A stretch of 37,920 nt of DNA from Methanobacteriota archaeon (GCA_002696315.1 NZRR01000043.1:44555-82474), one strand, 5' to 3'; positions 10,003 through 23,177 are shown, numbered from the stretch's first letter. Made by a program: numbers and translations. Notes: generated by a model from the sequence alone, not told the origin.

Positions 10003-12621
10003 TTATAATTTACCTTTAAGATAATCTTCACCATACCATTGCCATTGTTCCATTGTCCAATTTGGAGGCAATCCTTCCTTTGGTAGCGGAGGTCCTTGTG
10101 TTATTTTTTCCTCAATTTTACTTTTACGATTGTAAAATAAACCAGTTGCTAAAATTATTGTAAAAATTAATACAATTATTATTGACATATTAACCATATT
10201 ATTTGAGAAGTAATTCACAGATTTTTTTGAATCATTAGGATAAGCATCTAAATTATCACCAACACCATCTCCATCCGAATCTTTTGTTTCTGTCCCGTCT
10301 AATGGAAAAGAATCTAATTGATCATCAAGACCATCTCCATCAGAATCTAAACATCCATATCTTTCTATTGTCGAAGTGCCAAATATTTGGGGACACGAGT
10401 CAGGAAAATTACCGTTTTGCATATCACCATAAGAGTCACCATCAATATCTGTCCATTGAGTATAATCAAGTATGAACGCATCTACATCATCAGACCACCC
10501 ATCCCCATCACTATCCAAACAACCAAATTTATTAACAGTTGAATTCCCAAATATTTCTGGACATGAATCAGCTTTACTCCCTTCTAAATTATCACCAAAA
10601 CCATCTCCATCAGAATCTTCCCATTGACTTGAATCAAGCGGAAAAGCATCAGCCCCGAGGTTTAAACCCCAAGAAGAATCGACATCCGAATAACCATCAC
10701 TATCAGAATCTAAACATCCAAAACGATCTTCAGTTGAACTTCCAATAACTGTTGGACAATAATCACCATCTGTACCATATAATTCATCACCAAAACCATC
10801 CCCATCAGTATCATTCCATTGAGTTGTATCAACTGGAAATGAATCAATCTTATCTGAAAAACCATCAGAATCAGAATCAAGACAACCAATTAATAATTCT
10901 GTGCTTAAACCATTCTCAAGTGGGCAGTCATCATCAGAATCATAGTACCCATCATTGTCATCATCTAAATCTTCTGTAATATCTTCACAACCATCTCCAT
11001 CGTTATCAGTTTGTGCATTTGACATAAATTCTAGTGAAGATGTGGGACATAAATCAAATGATATTGAAGAGATATTACAATTTCCATCATAGTTATTTTC
11101 ATCACAAATCCCATCTCCATCATCATCTAAATCTTCTGTATTATCAAGACAACCATCCCCATCAAAATCTGTATAAATCCATGAAGACCATCCAGTATCT
11201 CCCAATGGACAACTATCATTTTCATCTAAAATAGAATCATCGTCATCATCTAAATCTTCTGTATTATCAATACAACCATCAGAATCATGATCCATATCTC
11301 TCTCAGAAACCCATTTCTTTTCCCCTCTTGGACAATTATCATTTTCATCTAAAATAGAATCATCATCATCATCATTATCACAAGCATCTCCAAGATTGTC
11401 ACCATCATAATCTTCCTGACTAGGGTTTGATACATACACACAATTATCTACTTCATCCATAACTTCGTCTTCATCAATATCGAAATAAGGATCTATACGT
11501 ATAACCTGGTCTCTACCATTATCTACATAGTAAAGAAAACCATCTGGACCAACTTCTATTCCCATAATTTTTTGAGCACTCGTTTGTATATTATCTAAAA
11601 ATGTACCACCTTTACCGTCTTCAAAAAGATCATATGCATTAATTTGACCATTCCCATATTCTGAAACAAATAAAGTATTATTTTCCAGAGCAATACCAGA
11701 TGGACGACTTAGTCCTGTGTCTAATATACCCCATTCTACATCTGTAATTCGCATGTATTCAGCTAAAGGCTCTAATCGAGATTGCTCATTATAAATATCC
11801 TCTGAGGTTGTAGTAGTATCATCAGTATTGATCCATAAAACTCTATTTGCACCAGTATCCGAAATATAGAGAATTCCGGTATTCTTATCAAGAATCATAT
11901 GTCCAGGCACTCCACCAAAACGACTCAACTCAATTTCAGAATATCTATGCACTATACCATCCGAGTGATCATGTTCTCCAGTATCATGATCCTCTTGAAA
12001 ATCATAACGTACTAATTCATTATAAAAACCATCATTATACCAGTAGACATTATCATAATCATGTGCAATTCCCATACCCAATGGAGATTCATGCAACATA
12101 TCTATATGGCTTCCAAGAAGACCATTTTCACCATTTTGATTTTCTACTGCAAAATGACTTAATGAAGAAGGCCAAAGAGCAGGCCCCATGAAATCATTTG
12201 GATCACCCATACCATTGTAGGTATTTCTTGACTCTTGGGCAGTTCCAAACTGATAGTCAAACTCATCATTATAAGCTCCAAAAGCTATTGCACTCACTTC
12301 TTCCATGAAATGATTTCTATATGCATCTAAACGCTCTTCACTAGTTTGACTTGAAGTACCAGTTTCATGAATAATAACCATACTATCATCAGCACGATTC
12401 ACAATCCACAATTCATCACTACGATTAATACCTGGATGAAATTCAAGATCTCTTGGTTCATCTAAACCATCTGTACTAGAAGCAATTATTACCTCATCAA
12501 AACCCGTCCCAAATTGTTGTACGATTTTCACTTCTTCAGATGCTTGTACTACTGGTATTAATGAAAATAATAAAATTCCAAAAATTAAGATGGTGTAATG
12601 TTTCACTCCCATATTCATCAA
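10003..12621 (-). CDS. Giant exported NHL-propeller / thrombospondin type-3 repeat surface protein
   Basis: An 872-residue surface protein. A signal peptide (about 1-28, ending VVQA) is followed by a beta-propeller-like region with NHL-type phrases such as GILYISDTGANRVLWI, NTLFVSEYGNGQI and DGFLYYVDNGRDQVI (about 30-390). The next 400 residues are about ten calcium-binding DxDxDGxxD thrombospondin type-3 repeats with regular cysteines (DNCP, DGCxD). A membrane helix (about 811-830) ends in a cytoplasmic tail, PPLPKEGLPPNWTMEQWQ, then WYGEDYL. That short tail is, as I recall, common on exported proteins of marine Group II archaea. The likely role is adhesion or substrate binding outside the cell. 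An alternative ATG three codons in (MGVKHY) is equally good. The repeats would rigidify with seawater calcium. Confidence 0.88.
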   Translation of the reverse strand: MMNMGVKHYTILIFGILLFSLIPVVQASEEVKIVQQFGTGFDEVIIASSTDGLDEPRDLEFHPGINRSDELWIVNRADDSMVIIHETGTSSQTSEERLDAYRNHFMEEVSAIAFGAYNDEFDYQFGTAQESRNTYNGMGDPNDFMGPALWPSSLSHFAVENQNGENGLLGSHIDMLHESPLGMGIAHDYDNVYWYNDGFYNELVRYDFQEDHDTGEHDHSDGIVHRYSEIELSRFGGVPGHMILDKNTGILYISDTGANRVLWINTDDTTTTSEDIYNEQSRLEPLAEYMRITDVEWGILDTGLSRPSGIALENNTLFVSEYGNGQINAYDLFEDGKGGTFLDNIQTSAQKIMGIEVGPDGFLYYVDNGRDQVIRIDPYFDIDEDEVMDEVDNCVYVSNPSQEDYDGDNLGDACDNDDDDDSILDENDNCPRGEKKWVSERDMDHDSDGCIDNTEDLDDDDDSILDENDSCPLGDTGWSSWIYTDFDGDGCLDNTEDLDDDGDGICDENNYDGNCNISSISFDLCPTSSLEFMSNAQTDNDGDGCEDITEDLDDDNDGYYDSDDDCPLENGLSTELLIGCLDSDSDGFSDKIDSFPVDTTQWNDTDGDGFGDELYGTDGDYCPTVIGSSTEDRFGCLDSDSDGYSDVDSSWGLNLGADAFPLDSSQWEDSDGDGFGDNLEGSKADSCPEIFGNSTVNKFGCLDSDGDGWSDDVDAFILDYTQWTDIDGDSYGDMQNGNFPDSCPQIFGTSTIERYGCLDSDGDGLDDQLDSFPLDGTETKDSDGDGVGDNLDAYPNDSKKSVNYFSNNMVNMSIIIVLIFTIILATGLFYNRKSKIEEKITQGPPLPKEGLPPNWTMEQWQWYGEDYLKGKL

Positions 12622-15032: not shown

Positions 15033-15048
15033 TTTAGGCGTGACTAAA
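15033..15048. promoter_or_regulatory. DtxR/IdeR-like operator, upstream copy
   Basis: TTTAGGCGTGACTAAA keeps the left half-site TTTAGG and, with one change, the right half-site. It ends just before the TATA box, where it could cover the BRE. The matching downstream copy makes chance less likely. The family assignment is from the TTAGG-N4-CCTAA core known for iron-dependent DtxR/IdeR repressors. Confidence 0.65.
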
Positions 15049-15050
15049 CA

Positions 15051-15059
15051 TTATATATG
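15051..15059 (+). promoter_or_regulatory. TATA box of the transferrin-like operon
   Basis: TTATATATG predicts transcription start near 15080, which falls inside the second operator. The start codon at 15105 has its own ribosome site GGTGA (15096-15100). Confidence 0.55.
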
Positions 15060-15077: not shown

Positions 15078-15093
15078 TTTAGGCGTACCTAAA
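15078..15093. promoter_or_regulatory. DtxR/IdeR-like operator, perfect inverted repeat at the transcription start
   Basis: TTTAGGCGTACCTAAA is a perfect TTTAGG-N4-CCTAAA inverted repeat, 45 bases from the upstream copy. It would overlap the predicted transcription start, so a metal-loaded repressor bound here would block initiation. It is the main evidence that the operon answers to iron or manganese rather than to phosphorus. Confidence 0.72.
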
Positions 15094-15104: not shown

Positions 15105-17282
15105 ATGAAAATTGAAAAAAGCATATTAATGATAATTTTAATCGTGTGTTCTGTTTTTGCAGGATGTACAGGAACAACGGACGAGACAACAGATACAACA
15201 GATACAACAGTTACAGATGGTAGCGATACTACAGATACAACTAACACAACTGATACTGTAACGGAACTACCTCAATTAAAAATTGCATATTCAGTACAAG
15301 ATGATTATGAAAATATTGATGAAAATCCACAACGTTTAGCAGATTATCTTGGAACTAAATTAAACATGGATGTATCATTATATCCAATAGATTCCGATGG
15401 AGCAGCATTGGAAGCTTTAAGATTTGGAAATGCACATTTAGCATTTTTAGACGGAGGTAGTGCATGGGTCGGTTGGCAACAATATGATCTTGAAGTTATG
15501 GCAGCAGATGAAAAATCAGATGGCCGTACTCATTACAGTGCACATGCATGGGTAAAAGCAGATAGTGAAATGGCCGCAGCACATCTAGATGATGATCCAA
15601 TTACTGATCCATTCTCATTACTTGAGGGCAAAACATCATGTCATACAGGCTGGTTAAAATCTGCAGGTATGTTAATGCCGATGGGATATTTGATCGGTCA
15701 TGGCTACGCTAATGTGGTTGGTGACGCAAATGATATTGAAACATTAAGAAACACAGTACTCAATTACTTTAATGATGATGCTTCAATTCCTGAATCTGGA
15801 ACACCATATTATGGATATGGTGGAGCATTAAAATGCCTATCAGATGGAACTGGTGATGTAGCATTTGCAAAAGATAGCACAGTAACTTCTTATTGTGATA
15901 ATGAAGATTCTACAGAGAACGAAGATTGGTGTTTAGCAATAGATCAATACGTTGCACTACCAGAATTCGGTAAATCTCCAAGCCACCCAGTAATGTACAA
16001 TCCTCAATTTATGGATGAAGAATTAGTAAATAAAGTTACTACAGCCTTAGTTGAAATGAAAAATGAAGCGGATGGAGAAGCAATACTATCAGATGTTCTA
16101 AGTACTACAGCAATTGTAGAAACAGATACAGAAACACACCTAGGAAGTTATTCTGCAGTATTATCTTCAATACCTGGAATTTCAGCATACTATAATGACA
16201 AATATACAATCAATGATTTAATGACGCCGACAATTGATAATGTACGTATTGCGTATGAGGTTAAGGATGATTACGAGAATCCCGATGAAAACCCACAAAT
16301 TTTAGCGGACTATTTAGCAGAAAAATTAGGAGTAGATGTCACATTATACCCAGTTACTTCTGAGGGCGCAATGATTGAAGCGTTAAGATTTGGAAATGCA
16401 GACATTGGATTTATGGATGGGGGAGCAGCTTGGATTGGTTGGAAATACTATGGATTGGCTACAATGGCAGCGGATCAAAAATCAGATGGTAGGACACATT
16501 ATGAAGCTCATGCATGGGTAAAAGCAGATAGTGAAATGGCCGCAGCACATCTAGATGATGATCCAACAACAGATCCTTTCGCACTACTAGAAGGAAAAAC
16601 TTCCTGCCATACAGGCTGGTTAAAATCTGCAGGTATGTTGTTACCAATGGGTTATTTGATTGGTAATGGGTACGCACCAGTAATTGGAGATGCGAATGAT
16701 ATAGAATCATTAAGAAATACTATTCTTAATTATTTCAGTGATGATGCTTCAATTCCTGAATCTGGAACACCATATTATGGATATGGTGGAGCATTAAAAT
16801 GTCTATCAGATGGAACTGGCGATGTTGCATTTGCAAAAGATAGTACAGTAGCTTCTTATTGTGACAATGAAGATTCAACAGAGAACGAAGATTGGTGTTT
16901 AGAGATGGATCAATATATTCCATTACCTGCATTTGGTAAGGCTCCAAGTCACCCAGTAATGTATAATCCAGAAACTCTTGATTTACAAACAAGAACAGCG
17001 ATTCTTAATGCCTTACTTTCAATGAATAATGAAATGTATGTTGAAAACTACACAGTAATGGGCAATTCGTATACAGGGTGCTATGATATCTCTGTACACG
17101 AAGTTGATTCAGAATCACCTAAGAATACTTGTGGAGATGAAATTTTGTTAAATGTATTAAACACACCGGGAATAGTACTAGCAACATCTCAACAACATCT
17201 CGGAAGTTATTCAGACTTGATATCAAATATCCCAGGAATTTCTACTTACTTTGAAAACAAGTATGAAATAATATCTAGTTAG
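15105..17282 (+). CDS. Bilobal transferrin-like lipoprotein (PhnD-related solute-binding protein)
   Basis: A 725-residue exported protein: lipoprotein signal with lipobox FAGC (Cys21), a Thr/Asp-rich linker (22-54), then two homologous lobes (about 56-370 and 378-725). Each lobe starts like PhnD but carries transferrin iron-site motifs in order. Lobe 1 has Asp116 (FLDGG), Tyr144 (HYSAHAWVK), Thr181 in SCHT, Lys185 where transferrin has Arg, Tyr238 (YYGYGGALKCL) and His294 (SPSH). Lobe 2 has Asp438, Tyr466, Thr503, Lys507, Tyr560 and His616. Cysteines 179/244 and 264/276 (501/566 and 586/598) match two conserved transferrin disulfides. Lobe 2 also has an insertion (about 641-680) with an extra pair, Cys659/Cys676. 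I infer ferric iron binding with carbonate and delivery to the ABC importer encoded next. A plain PhnD phosphonate-binding role is the alternative. Confidence 0.85.
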   Translation: MKIEKSILMIILIVCSVFAGCTGTTDETTDTTDTTVTDGSDTTDTTNTTDTVTELPQLKIAYSVQDDYENIDENPQRLADYLGTKLNMDVSLYPIDSDGAALEALRFGNAHLAFLDGGSAWVGWQQYDLEVMAADEKSDGRTHYSAHAWVKADSEMAAAHLDDDPITDPFSLLEGKTSCHTGWLKSAGMLMPMGYLIGHGYANVVGDANDIETLRNTVLNYFNDDASIPESGTPYYGYGGALKCLSDGTGDVAFAKDSTVTSYCDNEDSTENEDWCLAIDQYVALPEFGKSPSHPVMYNPQFMDEELVNKVTTALVEMKNEADGEAILSDVLSTTAIVETDTETHLGSYSAVLSSIPGISAYYNDKYTINDLMTPTIDNVRIAYEVKDDYENPDENPQILADYLAEKLGVDVTLYPVTSEGAMIEALRFGNADIGFMDGGAAWIGWKYYGLATMAADQKSDGRTHYEAHAWVKADSEMAAAHLDDDPTTDPFALLEGKTSCHTGWLKSAGMLLPMGYLIGNGYAPVIGDANDIESLRNTILNYFSDDASIPESGTPYYGYGGALKCLSDGTGDVAFAKDSTVASYCDNEDSTENEDWCLEMDQYIPLPAFGKAPSHPVMYNPETLDLQTRTAILNALLSMNNEMYVENYTVMGNSYTGCYDISVHEVDSESPKNTCGDEILLNVLNTPGIVLATSQQHLGSYSDLISNIPGISTYFENKYEIISS
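15543..15600 (+). repeat. 58-bp block identical between lobe 1 and lobe 2 (copy 1)
   Basis: This block is identical base for base to 16509-16566. It encodes AHAWVKADSEMAAAHLDDDP just after the second iron-ligand tyrosine. Perfect identity, including third codon positions, inside an otherwise diverged duplication suggests gene conversion or very recent exchange. Confidence 0.85.
15773..15835 (+). repeat. 63-bp block identical between lobe 1 and lobe 2 (copy 1)
   Basis: This block is identical base for base to 16739-16801. It encodes DDASIPESGTPYYGYGGALK and spans the third iron ligand (Tyr238 / Tyr560). Confidence 0.85.
16509..16566 (+). repeat. 58-bp block identical between lobes (copy 2)
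   Basis: Second copy of the block at 15543-15600, 966 bases downstream, in lobe 2. Confidence 0.85.
16739..16801 (+). repeat. 63-bp block identical between lobes (copy 2)
   Basis: Second copy of the block at 15773-15835. It is also 966 bases downstream, so the lobes stay in register with no net indel between the two blocks. Confidence 0.85.
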
Positions 17283-17305: not shown

Positions 17306-18019
17306 ATTCAGAATACGAAAGGAAAAATTCCCCTTGTCCAACTTCATGAATTAGTGGTGGGGTATAACACCAAAGAACCACTTATTAATATAGATGAATT
17401 TCAGATATTTTCAGGTGAAGTTGTAGTACTTACTGGAGTATCGGGGATAGGTAAAACAACCTTGTTAAAAACAATCGCAGGCTTAGTCAAACCCATTAAT
17501 GGAACAGTAAACGTTTGTGATAGAAAGCTACCGTCTAAACCCAAAAGGGGAGAGATCGGGTATATCCCTCAAAGTCTGGGATTAGTTAGACATGCTAGTG
17601 TGATACATAATGTAATGATAGGTGCTAATGCAGGAATGAAAAAATTTTGGAACCCTATTCCTTCATTATTAGCCAAAGATGTGGCAGACAAGGCGATATC
17701 AGCCATGGATTTAACAAGCCATCAATATCGCTTAATTAGAAAATTATCAGGGGGCCAACAAAGAAGAGTTGCTACCGCACGAACACTTGCTCAAAGACCA
17801 AGATTAATTCTAGCGGACGAATTCTTAAGTGAATTAGATGATAATACAAAAGAGAAAGTACTTTCTGAAGTATTGAAGTATGTTCAAGAAGAAAATGCTG
17901 CTTTAGTTGTGATAGAACACGATATTAAGAGAGCAAGAGAAATGGGAGATAGAATATTTTTAATTAAGGAAAGAAAACTTATTGAAATAGATAAAAATTC
18001 AATTTCGGAGGAAGAATGA
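17306..18019 (+). CDS. ABC transporter ATPase, PhnC-like (putative iron importer)
   Basis: This is the nucleotide-binding subunit of the importer fed by the transferrin-like lipoprotein. Counting from GTG 17354, Walker A is GVSGIGKTT (28-36), the Q-loop is IPQSLGL with Gln73, the signature is LSGGQQRR (131-138), Walker B is LILADEF (151-157) and the H-loop is VIEHD. The GTG start would remove the usual first strand. The upstream frame reads NTKGKIPLVQLHELVVGYN with no ATG, GTG or TTG, but an ATT at 17306 has GGGGG (17294-17298) before it. I therefore extend to 17306 (237 aa) while treating the rare start as inferred. The gap to the lipoprotein is 23 bases, and the stop overlaps the permease start by 4. 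Confidence 0.85.
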   Translation: MQNTKGKIPLVQLHELVVGYNTKEPLINIDEFQIFSGEVVVLTGVSGIGKTTLLKTIAGLVKPINGTVNVCDRKLPSKPKRGEIGYIPQSLGLVRHASVIHNVMIGANAGMKKFWNPIPSLLAKDVADKAISAMDLTSHQYRLIRKLSGGQQRRVATARTLAQRPRLILADEFLSELDDNTKEKVLSEVLKYVQEENAALVVIEHDIKRAREMGDRIFLIKERKLIEIDKNSISEEE

Positions 18020-18933
18020 TGCCTATTTTTCAAAATTATTATTTTAAAATGAGTAAATTAATTTTATTTTTTATTTTAATAACAATATTAACGTTAACAA
18101 CATTTAGTAATTTAGTAGACGGGGATTGGGGATCATTAGAAAACAGTCTTGCAAATTTGTCTACCTTTTTTTATGAATCATTATGGCCACCAAATTGGAA
18201 AGTAATTGAGCCCCAAGCATATCCTGTTTGTACTGAGATTCCTTTGTTAGATTTTAGATGTTCTACAGCCTGGATTGGAATGACAGAAACAATAAAAATT
18301 GCCTTTGTATCAACGATATTTGGAATGATTTTATCTATGCCAATTTCATTATTGGCAGCAAGAAATTTAAATCCGATTTGGATTTCATATCCGGCCAGAA
18401 TTATTCTTGCGGCGTTTAGATCTTTACCTAGTATAATTTGGGCAATTTTATTTGTAATTTTAATTGGATTTGGACCTGTAGCAGGAACTCTCGCTATGAC
18501 ATTTTATACAGTGGGATATCTAGGAAAATTGCAATATGAATCAATTGAGGGAATCTCGAGAGAACCATTGGATGCTGCAGATGTAATGGGGCTAAATAAA
18601 ATTGAAAAGGCATATACAGTTGTAATTCCAGAATCAGCAAACAATTTAATTTCTCAATTAATTTTTATGTTTGAATATAATGTTAGACATGGTACTGTAA
18701 TCGGTATTGTTGGAGCAGGTGGAATTGGATACTACATCAATTTATATTTGAAATTTTTACAATATGATAAAGTCATTGCATATCTAATAATTATATTCAT
18801 AACTGTAGTAATTATTGATTTAATATCTATTTATGCAAGGTCATTTTTCACTGAAAAAGAAAATCTGAAACGGCCAACTTGGAAAGAAATCTTCATTCCA
18901 GAATTTTTGTTTTCAAAATATAAAAAAGAATAA
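18016..18933 (+). CDS. ABC transporter permease, PhnE-like (putative iron importer)
   Basis: A 305-residue inner membrane permease of the PhnE/BPD-type family with about six helices: an N-terminal helix at about 13-33, then a cluster from about 90 to 275. The coupling EAA loop is recognisable as EPLDAADVMGLNKIEKAY near 180-197, followed by IVGAGGIGYYI typical of PhnE proteins. It overlaps the ATPase gene by four bases (ATGA-type coupling). A periplasm-facing insert (about 35-85) with two cysteines (VCTEIP, DFRCST) precedes the core and may dock the binding protein; this is a guess. By family it would import phosphonate or phosphite; by context, iron. Confidence 0.88.
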   Translation: MMPIFQNYYFKMSKLILFFILITILTLTTFSNLVDGDWGSLENSLANLSTFFYESLWPPNWKVIEPQAYPVCTEIPLLDFRCSTAWIGMTETIKIAFVSTIFGMILSMPISLLAARNLNPIWISYPARIILAAFRSLPSIIWAILFVILIGFGPVAGTLAMTFYTVGYLGKLQYESIEGISREPLDAADVMGLNKIEKAYTVVIPESANNLISQLIFMFEYNVRHGTVIGIVGAGGIGYYINLYLKFLQYDKVIAYLIIIFITVVIIDLISIYARSFFTEKENLKRPTWKEIFIPEFLFSKYKKE

Positions 18934-18958: not shown

Positions 18959-19174
18959 ATGGAAATAAATTATGAAACTCTAATCGCAGGAATCGGTTGT
19001 TTAACATATCTAGTTACTTGCCTAATTCGTGGTGCTTTTTGGAAACAAAATTGGACCAATAAAGGGGGCCAATGGGTGTCTCGTGAAGATGGACCGATTT
19101 TTTACATTATAATGATATTATTATTTGGAGCATTAGGCCCTTTTTTAATTTTAGAAGGGTTGAATATTATATGA
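18959..19174 (+). CDS. Small two-TM protein at the end of the transporter operon
   Basis: A 71-residue protein with hydrophobic segments at about 7-25 and 48-68 joined by a polar loop rich in Trp, Gly and charges (FWKQNWTNKGGQWVSRED). It starts 25 bases after the permease stop on the same strand and could be co-transcribed. Its last bases overlap the end of the convergent TauE gene by 8. No family is recognised. It could be an accessory subunit, but nothing in the sequence proves it. Confidence 0.6.
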   Translation: MEINYETLIAGIGCLTYLVTCLIRGAFWKQNWTNKGGQWVSREDGPIFYIIMILLFGALGPFLILEGLNII

Positions 19175-19898
19175 TAGTGGCTTCATATAAGTAGAAAAAA
19201 CCACTTCCAATAATACCTAACATTACTCCCCTTTGAATCCATTCTACTTTGAGATTTTTTAACCAACGTTTACCAATATTAACACCAAGTAAGGCCGAAA
19301 TAACCAAAATACAAGTTAATGTTAAGTGTTGTAGGATTTCTTCATGACGATAAACAAAATACACAGGAATTCTTGACAGATCTACACATAATGCAAGGAT
19401 ACTTGCAGTTGCAGCATAAGCCATCTTGTCAGGCAATCTCCGAGTAAGGAACATAGCACGAAGAGCGCCTTGGTGTCCTGAAAGGCCTCCCATAAATCCT
19501 GAACCAAACCCACCAACCCTGTCATTAGCTTCTGGAATTTTATAACCAGTCCATTTTTCACTCATAGTAAGTAATGGTAGTATGATAAGAAAAATACCAA
19601 TAATAGCTAATAGGGGCGCATCGGGAACTTGATTTTGTAAAAGAGCACCTAAAATAGCACCAATAACAAGCCAAATCCCATATTTACGAACAGCATCAAA
19701 ATCTACATACTTTTTGAGAACTACATACTTACTTCCATTATGCGCTCCATGAACGATAGCAACGATTGCTACTGCTTCATGCGGCCCCACTACTAATAGA
19801 ACCAAAGGAGTCAATATTGTTGACAGGCCAAAGCCAGCGGGAACAGTTAATATTGCCGCTAGAAATGCCCCAATAGATATGAATACAAAATCATCCAT
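19167..19898 (-). CDS. TauE/SafE family permease, second copy
   Basis: A 243-residue membrane protein with about eight helices of the TauE/SafE family. The start is MDDFVFISIGAFLAA, and VPAGFGLSTILTPLVLL corresponds to the glycine-rich first helix of the family. GSGFMGGLSGHQGALRAMFL in the second half is the matching repeat. It lies 20 bases behind the pit-type phosphate transporter on the same strand, so the two are likely one operon. That makes phosphate- or sulfur-oxyanion transport plausible, but the substrate is not readable. It differs clearly from the TauE protein at 12982-13746. Confidence 0.85.
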   Translation of the reverse strand: MDDFVFISIGAFLAAILTVPAGFGLSTILTPLVLLVVGPHEAVAIVAIVHGAHNGSKYVVLKKYVDFDAVRKYGIWLVIGAILGALLQNQVPDAPLLAIIGIFLIILPLLTMSEKWTGYKIPEANDRVGGFGSGFMGGLSGHQGALRAMFLTRRLPDKMAYAATASILALCVDLSRIPVYFVYRHEEILQHLTLTCILVISALLGVNIGKRWLKNLKVEWIQRGVMLGIIGSGFFYLYEATII

Positions 19899-19918
19899 TA
19901 TTCCAGATCCAAGTATTA

Positions 19919-22048
19919 TTAGTTGTAAACAATTGGTAAGAAGGCATTTGCAGCAGCCTCACAAGCATTTGCAACATCATCCATTCGTTGTAAGACACGA
20001 TACATATGCATTGCAGCCAATGGGTGATCCTCTCCATTACTAAACACAAATGCCGCAGCAGTAGCTTCAGAAATATCAGCCTCATGCTCTTTTAAGTTAA
20101 CTTTTCTAATCATCTCCAGGAGTTCATTTTTTCCAGATTTGGTATAACCAGATAAGGTAATATCTCTAAGGATTTCAACAGTATCTTCGTATGCAGCAAC
20201 GGTTTCAGCCACAGATAAAGCCATCTTCTTAAGCAAATCTCTGGCTTCATCATTTTCATATAACTCTCTAAAGGAAAGCTGTTCCGCAACATTTTGTGCA
20301 TAATCAGCAATCCTATCTTGACGTGTAAGCATATGTAAGAAAGCCTCACTACCAATGAGTAGTTTCCATTCACGACTACCTACTTTTTCACGTAAGGCCG
20401 ACTTTAAATTATCAGCGGCTAATTCTGCTTCAATAGTGGCTTTAATTTCTGCCGTAGCATCCTTTCCAGATGCTGCCCTATTGACTGCTTCTAACATATG
20501 ATTAACAGTAACTTCAACCGCTTCTGCGTGTTTGTGAAACAACTCAAAGACAGTTGGTGAGATTTGAGTTTTTGACTCAACACCCCCAACATCAGCTAAG
20601 GCATCTTCCACATATATTTCATCATCTTTTGTTTTCCACAATACATAAATTACTGCAACGAAAGCAAGAGGAATAATTAAACTAATTCTTGATGGATTTG
20701 AACCACTGGCAATGTATATGGCAACCGCTCCAAAAGCAGCGGCGGGTAAACTAGCGACCCAAGAAGCAGCAATCTTCCCAAATACACGGAAATCAACCGC
20801 TTTAGCTCCCCCAGCAAGCCCAACCCCAACTACGGCACCAACTAGTGTATGAGTAGTTGATACAGGCACAGCCAAAAAGGGCATTGAAAACATTAGAATT
20901 ACTGTTGCAGCCCCAAATTCAGCAGCAAACCCCCGGGTTGGCGTAATGTCTGTAATTTTTTTACCAATAGTTTCCATAACTCGATACCCCCAAGTCATTA
21001 CACCAATGGCAATACCAGCAGAACCAAGTAGAACTAGCCATAAAGGAATGTCTACTTTGGCCGACAACTCCCCCCCACTTGATAAGATATCATACACAGC
21101 AGCCATAGGCCCAATTGCATTTGATCGGTCATTTGCACCATGCGCAAAGGCTACATAGGCAGCAGTAATTATTTGTAGCCAAACAAAGATACGTTCAACC
21201 CCAGTAAAACCCCCTCTTTCATTATTGAAGTCATATTTACGTAAAACCCACCATAAAATTATACTTGATATAGTACCAATAGCCAATGCAAGTATTAAAC
21301 TGTTAATTGGAAACCAGGCATTTTCTGCCCAAGGATTAAACACCCCATTTTCTTTTACAGGCAACCAATCATACTTATTTTCAATCCAACCATTTTCTGC
21401 AGCTCTCGAAAAGAAACCTTTCAATGCTTTAAATTGTAAAGCAAGACCCAATACAAAGAATGTAGGTAGTGCTAATATTGGTGCCAACCATTTAGATCTT
21501 TCAACAGGATTATCTGCATCAAGAATGGCCATACGAACAACAGTAAATGATAGGAAAGCGATAATCCCCCCCATTAAAGGACTTGCAACCCAAGACATCA
21601 CAACCTTTTGAACTACTCCCCAATCAATTAGAGAGGTACTATGTTGTACTTCAAGAATTAAGCCAACACCAAGGATACCCCCAATTATTGAGTGGGTAGT
21701 CGATACAGGTAGCCCAAACCTTGTTGCAATCGTAAGCCAAACTGCTGCAGCCATCATTGCTGCAATAAAGGCATACATCAAATCATTGGCAAATCCATCA
21801 GGGAGGACTTCATCAAAATCTACCGATAAAATACCTTTTCGAACAGTATCTGTAACAGCATCACCGGCGAAAAATGCACCACTAAATTCGAAGATTGCTG
21901 CAATTATTACAGCCTGTTTGAGAGTTAAAGCACGACTTCCAACAGAAGTTCCCATTGCATTTGCAACATCATTCGCACCGATATTCCATGCCATATAAGC
22001 ACAAACTAATATCGATAGAGCTAGAACTAGCATCATAATTGGTTCCAT
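19919..22048 (-). CDS. Pit-type phosphate transporter fused to a PhoU-like domain
   Basis: A 709-residue protein. Residues 1 to about 490 are an inorganic phosphate permease (PHO4/PitA family) with the two inverted family signatures, NIGANDVANAMGTSVGS near 23-39 and AHGANDRSNAIGPMAA in the second half, each followed by a PVSTTHxxxG loop. After a polar linker, about 510-705 is a helical PhoU-like domain of the DUF47 kind (FELFHKHAEAVEVTVNHML...). It imports phosphate with a cation (probably Na+ in seawater), with the fused domain as a likely gate or sensor. A minus-strand TATA at about 22068-22083 suggests a leaderless mRNA. In most archaea the DUF47 protein is separate. Confidence 0.92.
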   Translation of the reverse strand: MEPIMMLVLALSILVCAYMAWNIGANDVANAMGTSVGSRALTLKQAVIIAAIFEFSGAFFAGDAVTDTVRKGILSVDFDEVLPDGFANDLMYAFIAAMMAAAVWLTIATRFGLPVSTTHSIIGGILGVGLILEVQHSTSLIDWGVVQKVVMSWVASPLMGGIIAFLSFTVVRMAILDADNPVERSKWLAPILALPTFFVLGLALQFKALKGFFSRAAENGWIENKYDWLPVKENGVFNPWAENAWFPINSLILALAIGTISSIILWWVLRKYDFNNERGGFTGVERIFVWLQIITAAYVAFAHGANDRSNAIGPMAAVYDILSSGGELSAKVDIPLWLVLLGSAGIAIGVMTWGYRVMETIGKKITDITPTRGFAAEFGAATVILMFSMPFLAVPVSTTHTLVGAVVGVGLAGGAKAVDFRVFGKIAASWVASLPAAAFGAVAIYIASGSNPSRISLIIPLAFVAVIYVLWKTKDDEIYVEDALADVGGVESKTQISPTVFELFHKHAEAVEVTVNHMLEAVNRAASGKDATAEIKATIEAELAADNLKSALREKVGSREWKLLIGSEAFLHMLTRQDRIADYAQNVAEQLSFRELYENDEARDLLKKMALSVAETVAAYEDTVEILRDITLSGYTKSGKNELLEMIRKVNLKEHEADISEATAAAFVFSNGEDHPLAAMHMYRVLQRMDDVANACEAAANAFLPIVYN

Positions 22049-22067
22049 AATTTTTCGTTAACTAATT

Positions 22068-22110
22068 TAGTATATCATATAGAACTACTATAATCTATAT
22101 AGTTATATTT
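22068..22110. promoter_or_regulatory. Divergent Pit / PhoU promoter with dyad
   Basis: An 82-base gap separates the two start codons. TATA-like stretches lie near 22068-22083 (for pit) and 22096-22110 (for the regulator), each about 26 bases from its start codon. Between and over them AACTACTATA (22083-22092) and TATATAGTT (22096-22104) form an imperfect inverted repeat. This could be the site at which the divergent AbrB-PhoU protein controls both genes; that is inference. Confidence 0.45.
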
Positions 22111-22130
22111 AGAATCATCATAGGGTATAC

Positions 22131-23177
22131 ATGGCGAAACAAAGTGGAAATAAAGACGTCAGAAAATTACAACTTACAGGAGGGGCAACTTATACCCTCA
22201 GTGTACCCAAAACTTGGGTCAAGCATCACAATCTTAAATCAAGAGACGGAATTCAGGTTGATTGGCGCCCTTCCGGAGCTCTAAGATTAACCCCTTTCAA
22301 CACCATAGAGCAGATTAAAAAAATCACATTAAGCACAAGAAAAATTCCCGAAGGGGCCCTTTTGGATCATTTAATGGGGGCATACCTTAGTGGAACTGAT
22401 CGGATAAAAATTAATTTCACATCGAAAGAGAATTCAAAAATAAAGAAAATTATTCGAATCTTTCAAAGGTCGACGCGTGGATTTGAAATTGAAGAAGAAT
22501 TAGATGAAAGTATTACATTAATTACTCTAATCAATGCTGGTGAATTACCAATGAGGAGCAGCCTTAATCAAATGTACATGCAATTAAATTCACTTATACG
22601 TGATATATTAGATGTAATTTCTGGTGAAGACAAATCACTTATTGAAGATTATGAGGAAAGAGAAAGAGAAATTGACAGCCTGAGGTTTTTTATTGAAAGA
22701 CAGGCAGGAATTGTATTAGATTCATACAAGGTTGCCGAGCGACTAAATATTGGGCGCAGACAAGCCGTAGAATATTCAAATTTAGCACGGGCATTGGAAA
22801 GGATGGCAGATCATACAAACCAGATGGCACATCTCGTGCTTGAAGATAATGGCCAGACCAAATTATCTTTTGATACTCCACCCCTCAATCAAATACCAAT
22901 TTGGCAAGGAGCATTACGAACTTTAATGATAAACATTAGAACTAATAATGGAGAAGAAATAGAAGTCGCCAGAAACTCATTGAAATCAGCACAGAAGATT
23001 CTAAAACAACACGAGAGAAGTCTTTGGTCTGGTAGAAAAGATGCGAATAAACTTTTGTTTGAGGACCATATCTCAGAATCCATCCGCCGTTTATGTGCAT
23101 ATACACGTGACTTTGGGGAAATTTTACTCAATATCCTTACTTATGATAGTATTATCTTTGATAAAAGAAATAATTAA
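22131..23177 (+). CDS. Phosphate-uptake regulator: AbrB-type DNA-binding domain plus PhoU domain
   Basis: A 348-residue archaeal PhoU-type regulator. Residues 4-55 are a SpoVT/AbrB swapped-hairpin DNA-binding domain (VRKLQLTGGATYTLSVPKTW), after which two helical PhoU-like three-helix bundles run from about 130 to 340 with repeated E/D-rich helices. In archaea this architecture goes with phosphate transport control, in contrast to bacterial PhoU, which has no DNA-binding part. It is divergent from the pit-PhoU fusion, so direct repression of that gene under phosphate excess is likely. The ATG is probably leaderless. Confidence 0.9.
   Translation: MAKQSGNKDVRKLQLTGGATYTLSVPKTWVKHHNLKSRDGIQVDWRPSGALRLTPFNTIEQIKKITLSTRKIPEGALLDHLMGAYLSGTDRIKINFTSKENSKIKKIIRIFQRSTRGFEIEEELDESITLITLINAGELPMRSSLNQMYMQLNSLIRDILDVISGEDKSLIEDYEEREREIDSLRFFIERQAGIVLDSYKVAERLNIGRRQAVEYSNLARALERMADHTNQMAHLVLEDNGQTKLSFDTPPLNQIPIWQGALRTLMINIRTNNGEEIEVARNSLKSAQKILKQHERSLWSGRKDANKLLFEDHISESIRRLCAYTRDFGEILLNILTYDSIIFDKRNN

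Follow-up and report, generated by a model that had tools for sequence, protein, structure and literature searches.

The window, i.e. the whole stretch of 37,920 nucleotides analysed here, carries on its plus strand a gene for a 725-residue protein consisting, as a preliminary description of this DNA had claimed, of two tandem lobes; these have approximately 325 to 345 residues each and a mutual identity of 72-73%. A signal peptide with the lipobox VFAGC precedes a Thr/Asp-rich linker (residues 22-55), and G20 and C21 are invariant in an alignment of 30 homologues, which bears out the lipid anchor proposed in the same description. The neighbouring ABC importer is also present as claimed: genes for an ATPase and a PhnE-type permease directly follow the receptor gene, and the order substrate-binding protein, ATPase, PhnE is kept in 71 of 79 homologous loci, the contigs of the other eight ending too early. 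The genes and domains concerned are the following.

15105-17282, plus strand: two-lobed transferrin-like lipid-anchored substrate-binding protein, 725 amino acids (open reading frame, Pfam, PDB matches, model)
15105-15167, plus strand: signal peptide with lipobox VFAGC, Cys21 being the lipid anchor (predicted from sequence)
15270-16244, plus strand: lobe 1, residues 56-380 (Pfam, model with pLDDT 90.3 and pTM 0.84, structural matches)
16245-17279, plus strand: lobe 2, residues 381-725, with a Cys-containing extra insert near the C-terminal end (Pfam, lobe alignment)
17354-18019, plus strand: ABC transporter ATPase, PhnC-like, 221 amino acids as called, predicted GTG start (profiles, synteny)
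18016-18933, plus strand: ABC transporter permease, PhnE type, 305 amino acids (TIGR01097, synteny)

The contig belongs to a Marine Group II (MGII, Poseidoniales) archaeon. The closest lobe in GTDB r220 is that of 'Euryarchaeota archaeon bin.111' with 90% identity, followed by lobes of named Poseidoniales, and the window also holds a PcrB-family (GGGP synthase) gene and a rhodopsin gene. Adjoining the operon (window 19167-23177) are genes for a TauE-like permease, for PhoU and for a Pit transporter carrying a fused PhoU-like part, which are probably phosphate genes. Positions 10003-12621 on the minus strand encode an 872-residue secreted protein with Asp-rich thrombospondin type 3 repeats and a C-terminal membrane helix. 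Between the window and the nearest relative, the ATPases (17354-18019 and L038:5196-5876) share only 50% identity, as compared with 86-90% for the lobes and 80% for MoeA, and a replacement of the ATPase gene in this operon is possible.

Similarity to transferrins and to phosphonate-binding proteins

The whole protein matches the Pfam family Transferrin (PF00405) with 141.2 bits, the cut-off being 20.3, and the single lobes reach 73.4 and 75.2 bits. With respect to the family Phosphonate-bd (PF12974), the whole protein scores 148.4 bits (cut-off 27) and each lobe alone also passes, so that both lobes exceed the cut-offs of both families, in support of the earlier assignment to the transferrins. 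The best sequence matches in the PDB are lactoferrins, with E ~1e-27 in a single-sequence search and 3.5e-38 in a search with the lobe profile. A Foldseek search with the AlphaFold model of the full-length protein (pLDDT 78) gave transferrins for each of the best 50 PDB matches; the first match of a single-lobe model (pLDDT 90.3, pTM 0.84) was the N-lobe of ovotransferrin, again as the assignment predicts, with the phosphite-binding PtxB and the arsenite-binding AioX close behind. Since profile scores as well as fold matches extend to both families, the bridge between the PhnD family and the transferrins, which the preliminary description had surmised from retained PhnD-like features, is therefore real, and as judged by profiles and models the protein occupies a bridging position between the two.

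On the same comparative grounds, the likeness to transferrins is confirmed to be far beyond chance, and specific rather than generic to PhnD-like proteins. Neither chance nor the fold as such explains it: 14 control genomes are without a match to PF00405, though 12 of them hold PF12974 matches, and four PhnD-like proteins from bacteria, which score 184-188 bits for PF12974, gave no PF00405 match at E<=10. In the reverse test, a bovine lactoferrin fragment barely reached Phosphonate-bd (20.2 bits).

The residues predicted to contact iron and the anion are listed below; in alignments, the iron ligands of lobe 1 correspond to D63, Y95 (Y92 in lactoferrin), Y188 and H249 of human transferrin, whose roles, like that of the human C118-C194 pair, are known in the transferrin family.

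15450-15452, plus strand: Asp116, predicted Fe ligand of lobe 1 (human D63; alignments)
15534-15536, plus strand: Tyr144, predicted Fe ligand of lobe 1 (human Y95, lactoferrin Y92; alignments)
15636-15668, plus strand: anion-site segment SCHTGWLKSAG, residues 178-188, Lys185 replacing the transferrin Arg (alignments)
15816-15818, plus strand: Tyr238, predicted Fe ligand of lobe 1 (human Y188; alignments)
15984-15986, plus strand: His294, predicted Fe ligand of lobe 1 (human H249; alignments)
16416-16418, plus strand: Asp438, predicted Fe ligand of lobe 2 (lobe alignment)
16500-16502, plus strand: Tyr466, predicted Fe ligand of lobe 2 (lobe alignment)
16602-16634, plus strand: anion-site segment of lobe 2, residues 500-510, Lys507 (alignments)
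16782-16784, plus strand: Tyr560, predicted Fe ligand of lobe 2 (lobe alignment)
16950-16952, plus strand: His616, predicted Fe ligand of lobe 2 (lobe alignment)

The motifs LDGG/MDGG, THYxAHAWVK, SCHTGWLKSAG, YYGYGGALKCL and PSH, to which attention had been drawn before, are found in both lobes, and the predicted ligands D116/Y144/Y238/H294 and D438/Y466/Y560/H616 follow each other in the Asp-Tyr-Tyr-His order of transferrin, as had likewise been stated. In a survey of 79 archaeal lobes from the order and its neighbours, the Asp ligand is kept in 76 and is Glu in the remaining 3, the Tyr144 and His294 positions are conserved in 79/79 and the Tyr238 position in 78/79 lobes, and the Thr, Ala and Gly of the anion site are each present in all 79. 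The previously noted substitution of Lys for the anion-site Arg (K185 in lobe 1, K507 in lobe 2) recurs in 78 of the 79 lobes; it may weaken the binding of carbonate, for which there are no binding data. All four cysteines, i.e. both pairs, are kept in 79/79 lobes. The claim that both pairs match conserved transferrin disulfides holds in part: the pair 179/244 is the counterpart of the human C118/C194 disulfide with both sides aligned, whereas 264/276 does not match as a pair, only C276 aligning with a transferrin cysteine. A distant homologue from the Thermoplasmatota (L031:1245-2207:+) has lost the Lys and the second Tyr and kept the Asp, the His and the promoter box, and here a change of ligand is possible.

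Instead of bare Fe3+, the lobes might bind ferric iron as Fe-phosphate, as Fe-citrate or in a complex with a siderophore, or else a different trivalent metal, given that the Lys could suit another anion and that the fold is common to the phosphite- and phosphate-binding PtxB and AioX. However, the full set of Asp-Tyr-Tyr-His, combined with the Thr and the Ala-Gly of the anion site, is how transferrins bind Fe3+ together with a small synergistic anion, and we consider this possibility unlikely.

An alignment with bacterial PhnD-like proteins and lactoferrin separates what is shared with either family. Common to the window protein and transferrin only are the Asp, the segment SCHTxxx[K/R]xAG, the motif YxGYxGAxxC and a Cys pair, ordinary PhnD-like proteins being without the Asp, the SCHT anion segment and the cysteines, and the PSH His and the Tyr are already present at the same places in ordinary PhnD-like proteins. 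Compared with serum transferrin, lactoferrin and melanotransferrin (PF00405), the protein is alike in its lobe profile scores, ligand order, fold, two lobes, SCHTxxx[R/K]xAG anion site and C118-C194 disulfide equivalent, but differs in being archaeal, lipid-anchored and encoded in an ABC operon, in the Lys for Arg, in the lack of most other disulfides and in an independent lobe duplication (see below). With PhnD/PtxB and their PhnC-PhnE importers (PF12974) it shares the fold, the profile score, the gene order with PhnE, the PSH His and the Tyr, but it adds the Asp, SCHT..K.AG, two Cys pairs and a promoter of iron type.

Phosphonate annotation, promoter and iron boxes

An alternative reading is that the operon encodes a phosphonate or phosphite importer of the PhnCDE type, whose substrate-binding protein would resemble transferrin only through the PhnD-related fold. 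It can draw on the 148 bits for PF12974, on a permease above the PhnE equivalog cut-off (TIGR01097, 229 bits against 216.7), on PtxB among the best folds of the single lobe, on the Pit and PhoU genes nearby in the window and on the listing of phosphonate transport as part of the MGII core by Tully 2019 (PMC6336850). However, the substrate-binding protein stays below the cut-offs of the PhnD equivalog (TIGR03431, 65 bits against 261.1) and of the subfamily TIGR01098 (101 bits against 112.05), the ATPase stays below that of the PhnC equivalog (136.1 bits against 266.1), and, with respect to the two degradation routes looked for, the C-P lyase PhnJ was found in 0/58 relatives and PhnX above its cut-off likewise in 0/58. 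In these scores and in genomes without C-P lyase, the system differs from the PhnD/PtxB systems. The derived transferrin features missing from ordinary PhnD-like proteins, the iron box with its regulon and the mutual exclusion with FTR1 (both described below) also speak against a phosphonate or phosphite importer, which we hold to be quite improbable. In fact, nearly all above-cut-off PF12974 matches in the order are the same transferrin-like genes; therefore, the 'phosphonate transport' of the MGII core is most likely the transferrin-like receptor system of the window.

Upstream of the receptor gene, two palindromic boxes flank a TATA box.

15033-15048, plus strand: iron box 1, TTTAGGCGTGACTAAA, differing at one position from TTTAGGN4CCTAAA (palindrome, recurrence)
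15051-15057, plus strand: TATA box TTATATA between the iron boxes (position, recurrence)
15078-15093, plus strand: iron box 2, TTTAGGCGTACCTAAA, without mismatch, spaced by 45 bp from box 1, its end 11 bp upstream of the ATG (palindrome)

Of 73 homologous promoters, 64 contain the sequence TTAGGN4CCTAA, at a density of 6.8 per kb as opposed to 0.025 per kb elsewhere in the loci. In promoters with two boxes, these are spaced by 33-35 or 43-45 bp, with one case at 49, the groups differing by one helical turn; 33 of the 36 such promoters have a TATA-like sequence between the boxes, versus 6% of random segments. The 58 genomes together contain the exact box 110 times and the reversed pattern 22 times, and in the single-contig genome G014 the exact box is found only twice, both times in the promoter of the transferrin-like gene. 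The boxes of IdeR/DtxR are made of TTAGG/CCTAA half-sites, TTAGGTTAGSCTAACCTAA (PMC10317159; PMC1382209). Such half-sites are contained in the window boxes, in a 14-bp form with two half-sites; the full 19-bp IdeR box TTAGGTTAGSCTAACCTAA is absent from the window promoter. The promoter thus appears to be DtxR/IdeR-like and of iron type, the binding of a repressor being inferred.

As derived from exact-box searches only, the box precedes the genes for the catalase-peroxidase KatG, the small chain of ribonucleotide reductase, SufC and the complex I subunit NuoA in the own or related genomes, the boxed SufC gene adjoining SufB and a NifU-like gene. Further relatives have it in front of genes for flavodoxin, an FTR1/EfeU permease and an FEA1-related lipoprotein, and some boxes precede genes without evident iron link. 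By its gene content, this set is an iron regulon. Flavodoxin genes stand behind the box at L181:1560-2012:+, L183:1565-2086:+ and in L180, as expected if ferredoxin is replaced under iron scarcity. Boxed FTR1/EfeU-like permeases (L185:1549-2412:+, L193:1548-2411:+, L197, L198) are found, within the class, only in genomes without the transferrin-like protein. The FEA1-related lipoprotein lies behind two iron boxes in Poseidoniales (L189:211-1485:-, L176:1-402:-) and matches NCBIfam NF038033 with 309 bits as well as PF07692, the domain of the algal phytotransferrins; it is a second kind of putative iron-binding protein on the surface of these archaea.

The own genome has one DtxR-family gene, which lies downstream of the boxed katG at about position 131283 of G000:C5. 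Its product aligns with DtxR and IdeR and keeps, as read by eye, the IdeR-type Met and Cys of the primary site, which raise the selectivity for Fe2+ over Mn2+ (PMC10317159). The archaeal system resembles the actinobacterial DtxR/IdeR regulons in its TTAGG/CCTAA half-sites, in the IdeR-type metal ligands of the regulator and in its targets, i.e. iron uptake, Fe-S assembly and iron enzymes, but it differs in having 14-bp boxes of two half-sites instead of 19-bp boxes of four, and in placing two boxes around the TATA box.

Distribution among Marine Group II archaea

PF00405 is matched in 41 of 58 relatives; within the phylum, 74 genomes out of 293 have a match, of which 71 are in the class. The transferrin-like protein is thus no single oddity and is spread through most of the order. 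An artefact of assembly or binning was rejected in view of the many genomes with the family, MAGs as well as single-cell genomes, and of the PcrB-family and rhodopsin genes in the window. The best 79 genome matches, with 172 weaker ones left out, are archaeal except for two records, L084 (AH-558-G13), labelled Deltaproteobacteria, and L095 (NAT90), labelled Flavobacteriaceae. Both are GTDB representatives that carry Poseidoniales-like loci and are probably mislabelled, and they were therefore not accepted as bacterial members; in view of the weaker matches left out, an absence from bacteria is not claimed. No homologue was found in viral contigs. A distant homologue, frameshifted and unannotated, is present on a plasmid of the haloarchaeon Natronococcus occultus (L136:4741-5860), between a gene for a DtxR-type metal-dependent regulator and those for an ATPase and PhnE, with an iron-sulfur repair gene close by.

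FeoB was found in 0/58 relatives. Of the 17 relatives without the transferrin-like protein, 10 have the iron permease FTR1, versus none of the 41 with it (p 3.7e-7); in the wider class sample the numbers are 10 of 17 negatives versus 0 of 71 positives (p 4.3e-9). The two samples overlap, the counts are not phylogenetically independent, and many of the genomes are incomplete MAGs. Both kinds of genome occur inside the genera g3, g14, g16 and g24, and therefore the exchange happened several times; the two systems replace each other as equal function predicts. Outside the class, one genome (G122) has both an FTR1 and a transferrin match.

The family comprises one-lobed, two-lobed and membrane-anchored single-lobed forms. 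In the last of these, found behind the box in L007, L008, L010, L018, L020 and L036, an N-terminal membrane helix replaces the lipobox (motifs VDGA and YSGYKGAMKCM), and several of the genomes concerned have a two-lobed copy a few kb away. Two-lobed and single-lobed forms are intermixed in the lobe tree, and the duplication is therefore local and independent of the animal one. A shared origin of the animal and archaeal two-lobe layouts was rejected on the basis of this intermixing and of the 72-73% identity between the archaeal lobes.

That some genomes hold the helix-anchored single-lobed form without lipobox in addition to the two-lobed one also leaves room for a role as a buffer or sensor of iron at the cell surface, independent of the adjoining ABC genes. 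However, the lipoprotein form is followed by the ATPase and PhnE wherever the contig reaches far enough, and it replaces FTR1, which is itself an importer, so that such a role is hardly credible.

Proposed mechanism and implications

We consider it very probable that the operon encodes a transferrin-family ferric receptor which feeds a PhnE-type ABC importer and is repressed by iron. The evidence for the role in iron uptake consists of sequence, the iron-type gene switch and genome distribution; against it stand the Lys of the anion site, the permease, which passes the PhnE cut-off, the lobes, which score as well with Phosphonate-bd as with Transferrin, and the presence of the His and the Tyr residues in ordinary PhnD-like proteins. 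The analysis shows the homology, the conservation of the ligands, the operon, the lipobox, the box with its regulon and the mutual exclusion with FTR1; the binding of Fe3+ and of carbonate, the delivery through the permease and the binding of the repressor are all inferred. According to the proposed mechanism, the lipid anchor would hold the two transferrin-type lobes at the outer face of the cytoplasmic membrane, where each would coordinate one Fe3+ by its four ligands (Asp, two Tyr, His); a synergistic anion, probably carbonate, would sit at the helix start of SCHT..K.AG, and the lobe would then close over the Fe3+. Once loaded, the lobe would dock on the PhnE-type permease (18016-18933), taken to be a homodimer, import being driven by the PhnC-like ATPase (17354-18019), and ATP hydrolysis would release the iron into the cell. 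Two lobes per anchor would double the capture, and the Lys may loosen anion binding and so favour release, a property that would matter more to a receptor delivering to a permease than to a blood carrier. The promoter would be shut by the Fe2+-loaded repressor of the DtxR/IdeR family through the boxes flanking the TATA box, and the system would therefore be made when iron is scarce.

In its proposed role the receptor resembles bacterial FbpA/FutA, i.e. Fe3+ would be bound outside the membrane and fed to an ABC importer, but ligand set and position are those of transferrin, and none of the FbpA-type Pfam families was matched by the window protein at E<=10. As a surface ferric receptor of marine plankton under iron starvation it is also comparable to the phytotransferrin ISIP2A/FEA1 (PF07692), for which an origin among phosphonate-binding proteins is reported by McQuaid 2018, as cited in the review PMC7676907. 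However, PF07692 was not matched by the window protein at E<=10, and a separate FEA1 lipoprotein stands under the same box in other Poseidoniales.

Iron limits large parts of the ocean, and the Marine Group II are abundant archaea of its surface. No account of how they obtain iron was found, and in open-licence texts, the only ones covered, no paper naming transferrin in Marine Group II archaea was found. It remains a tentative proposal that a prokaryotic branch of the transferrins functions as iron ABC receptor, keeps the PhnD bridge and marks the source lineage of eukaryotic transferrins, the phosphonate transport of MGII being iron transport. The finding supplies a testable receptor, operon and promoter box for iron uptake in MGII, recasts the core 'phosphonate transport' annotation of these archaea as iron uptake, and provides free-living relatives for tracing how transferrin arose from binding proteins of the PhnD type. 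Should the anion be carbonate, iron uptake by MGII would depend on seawater carbonate, as has been reported for the phytotransferrin of diatoms.
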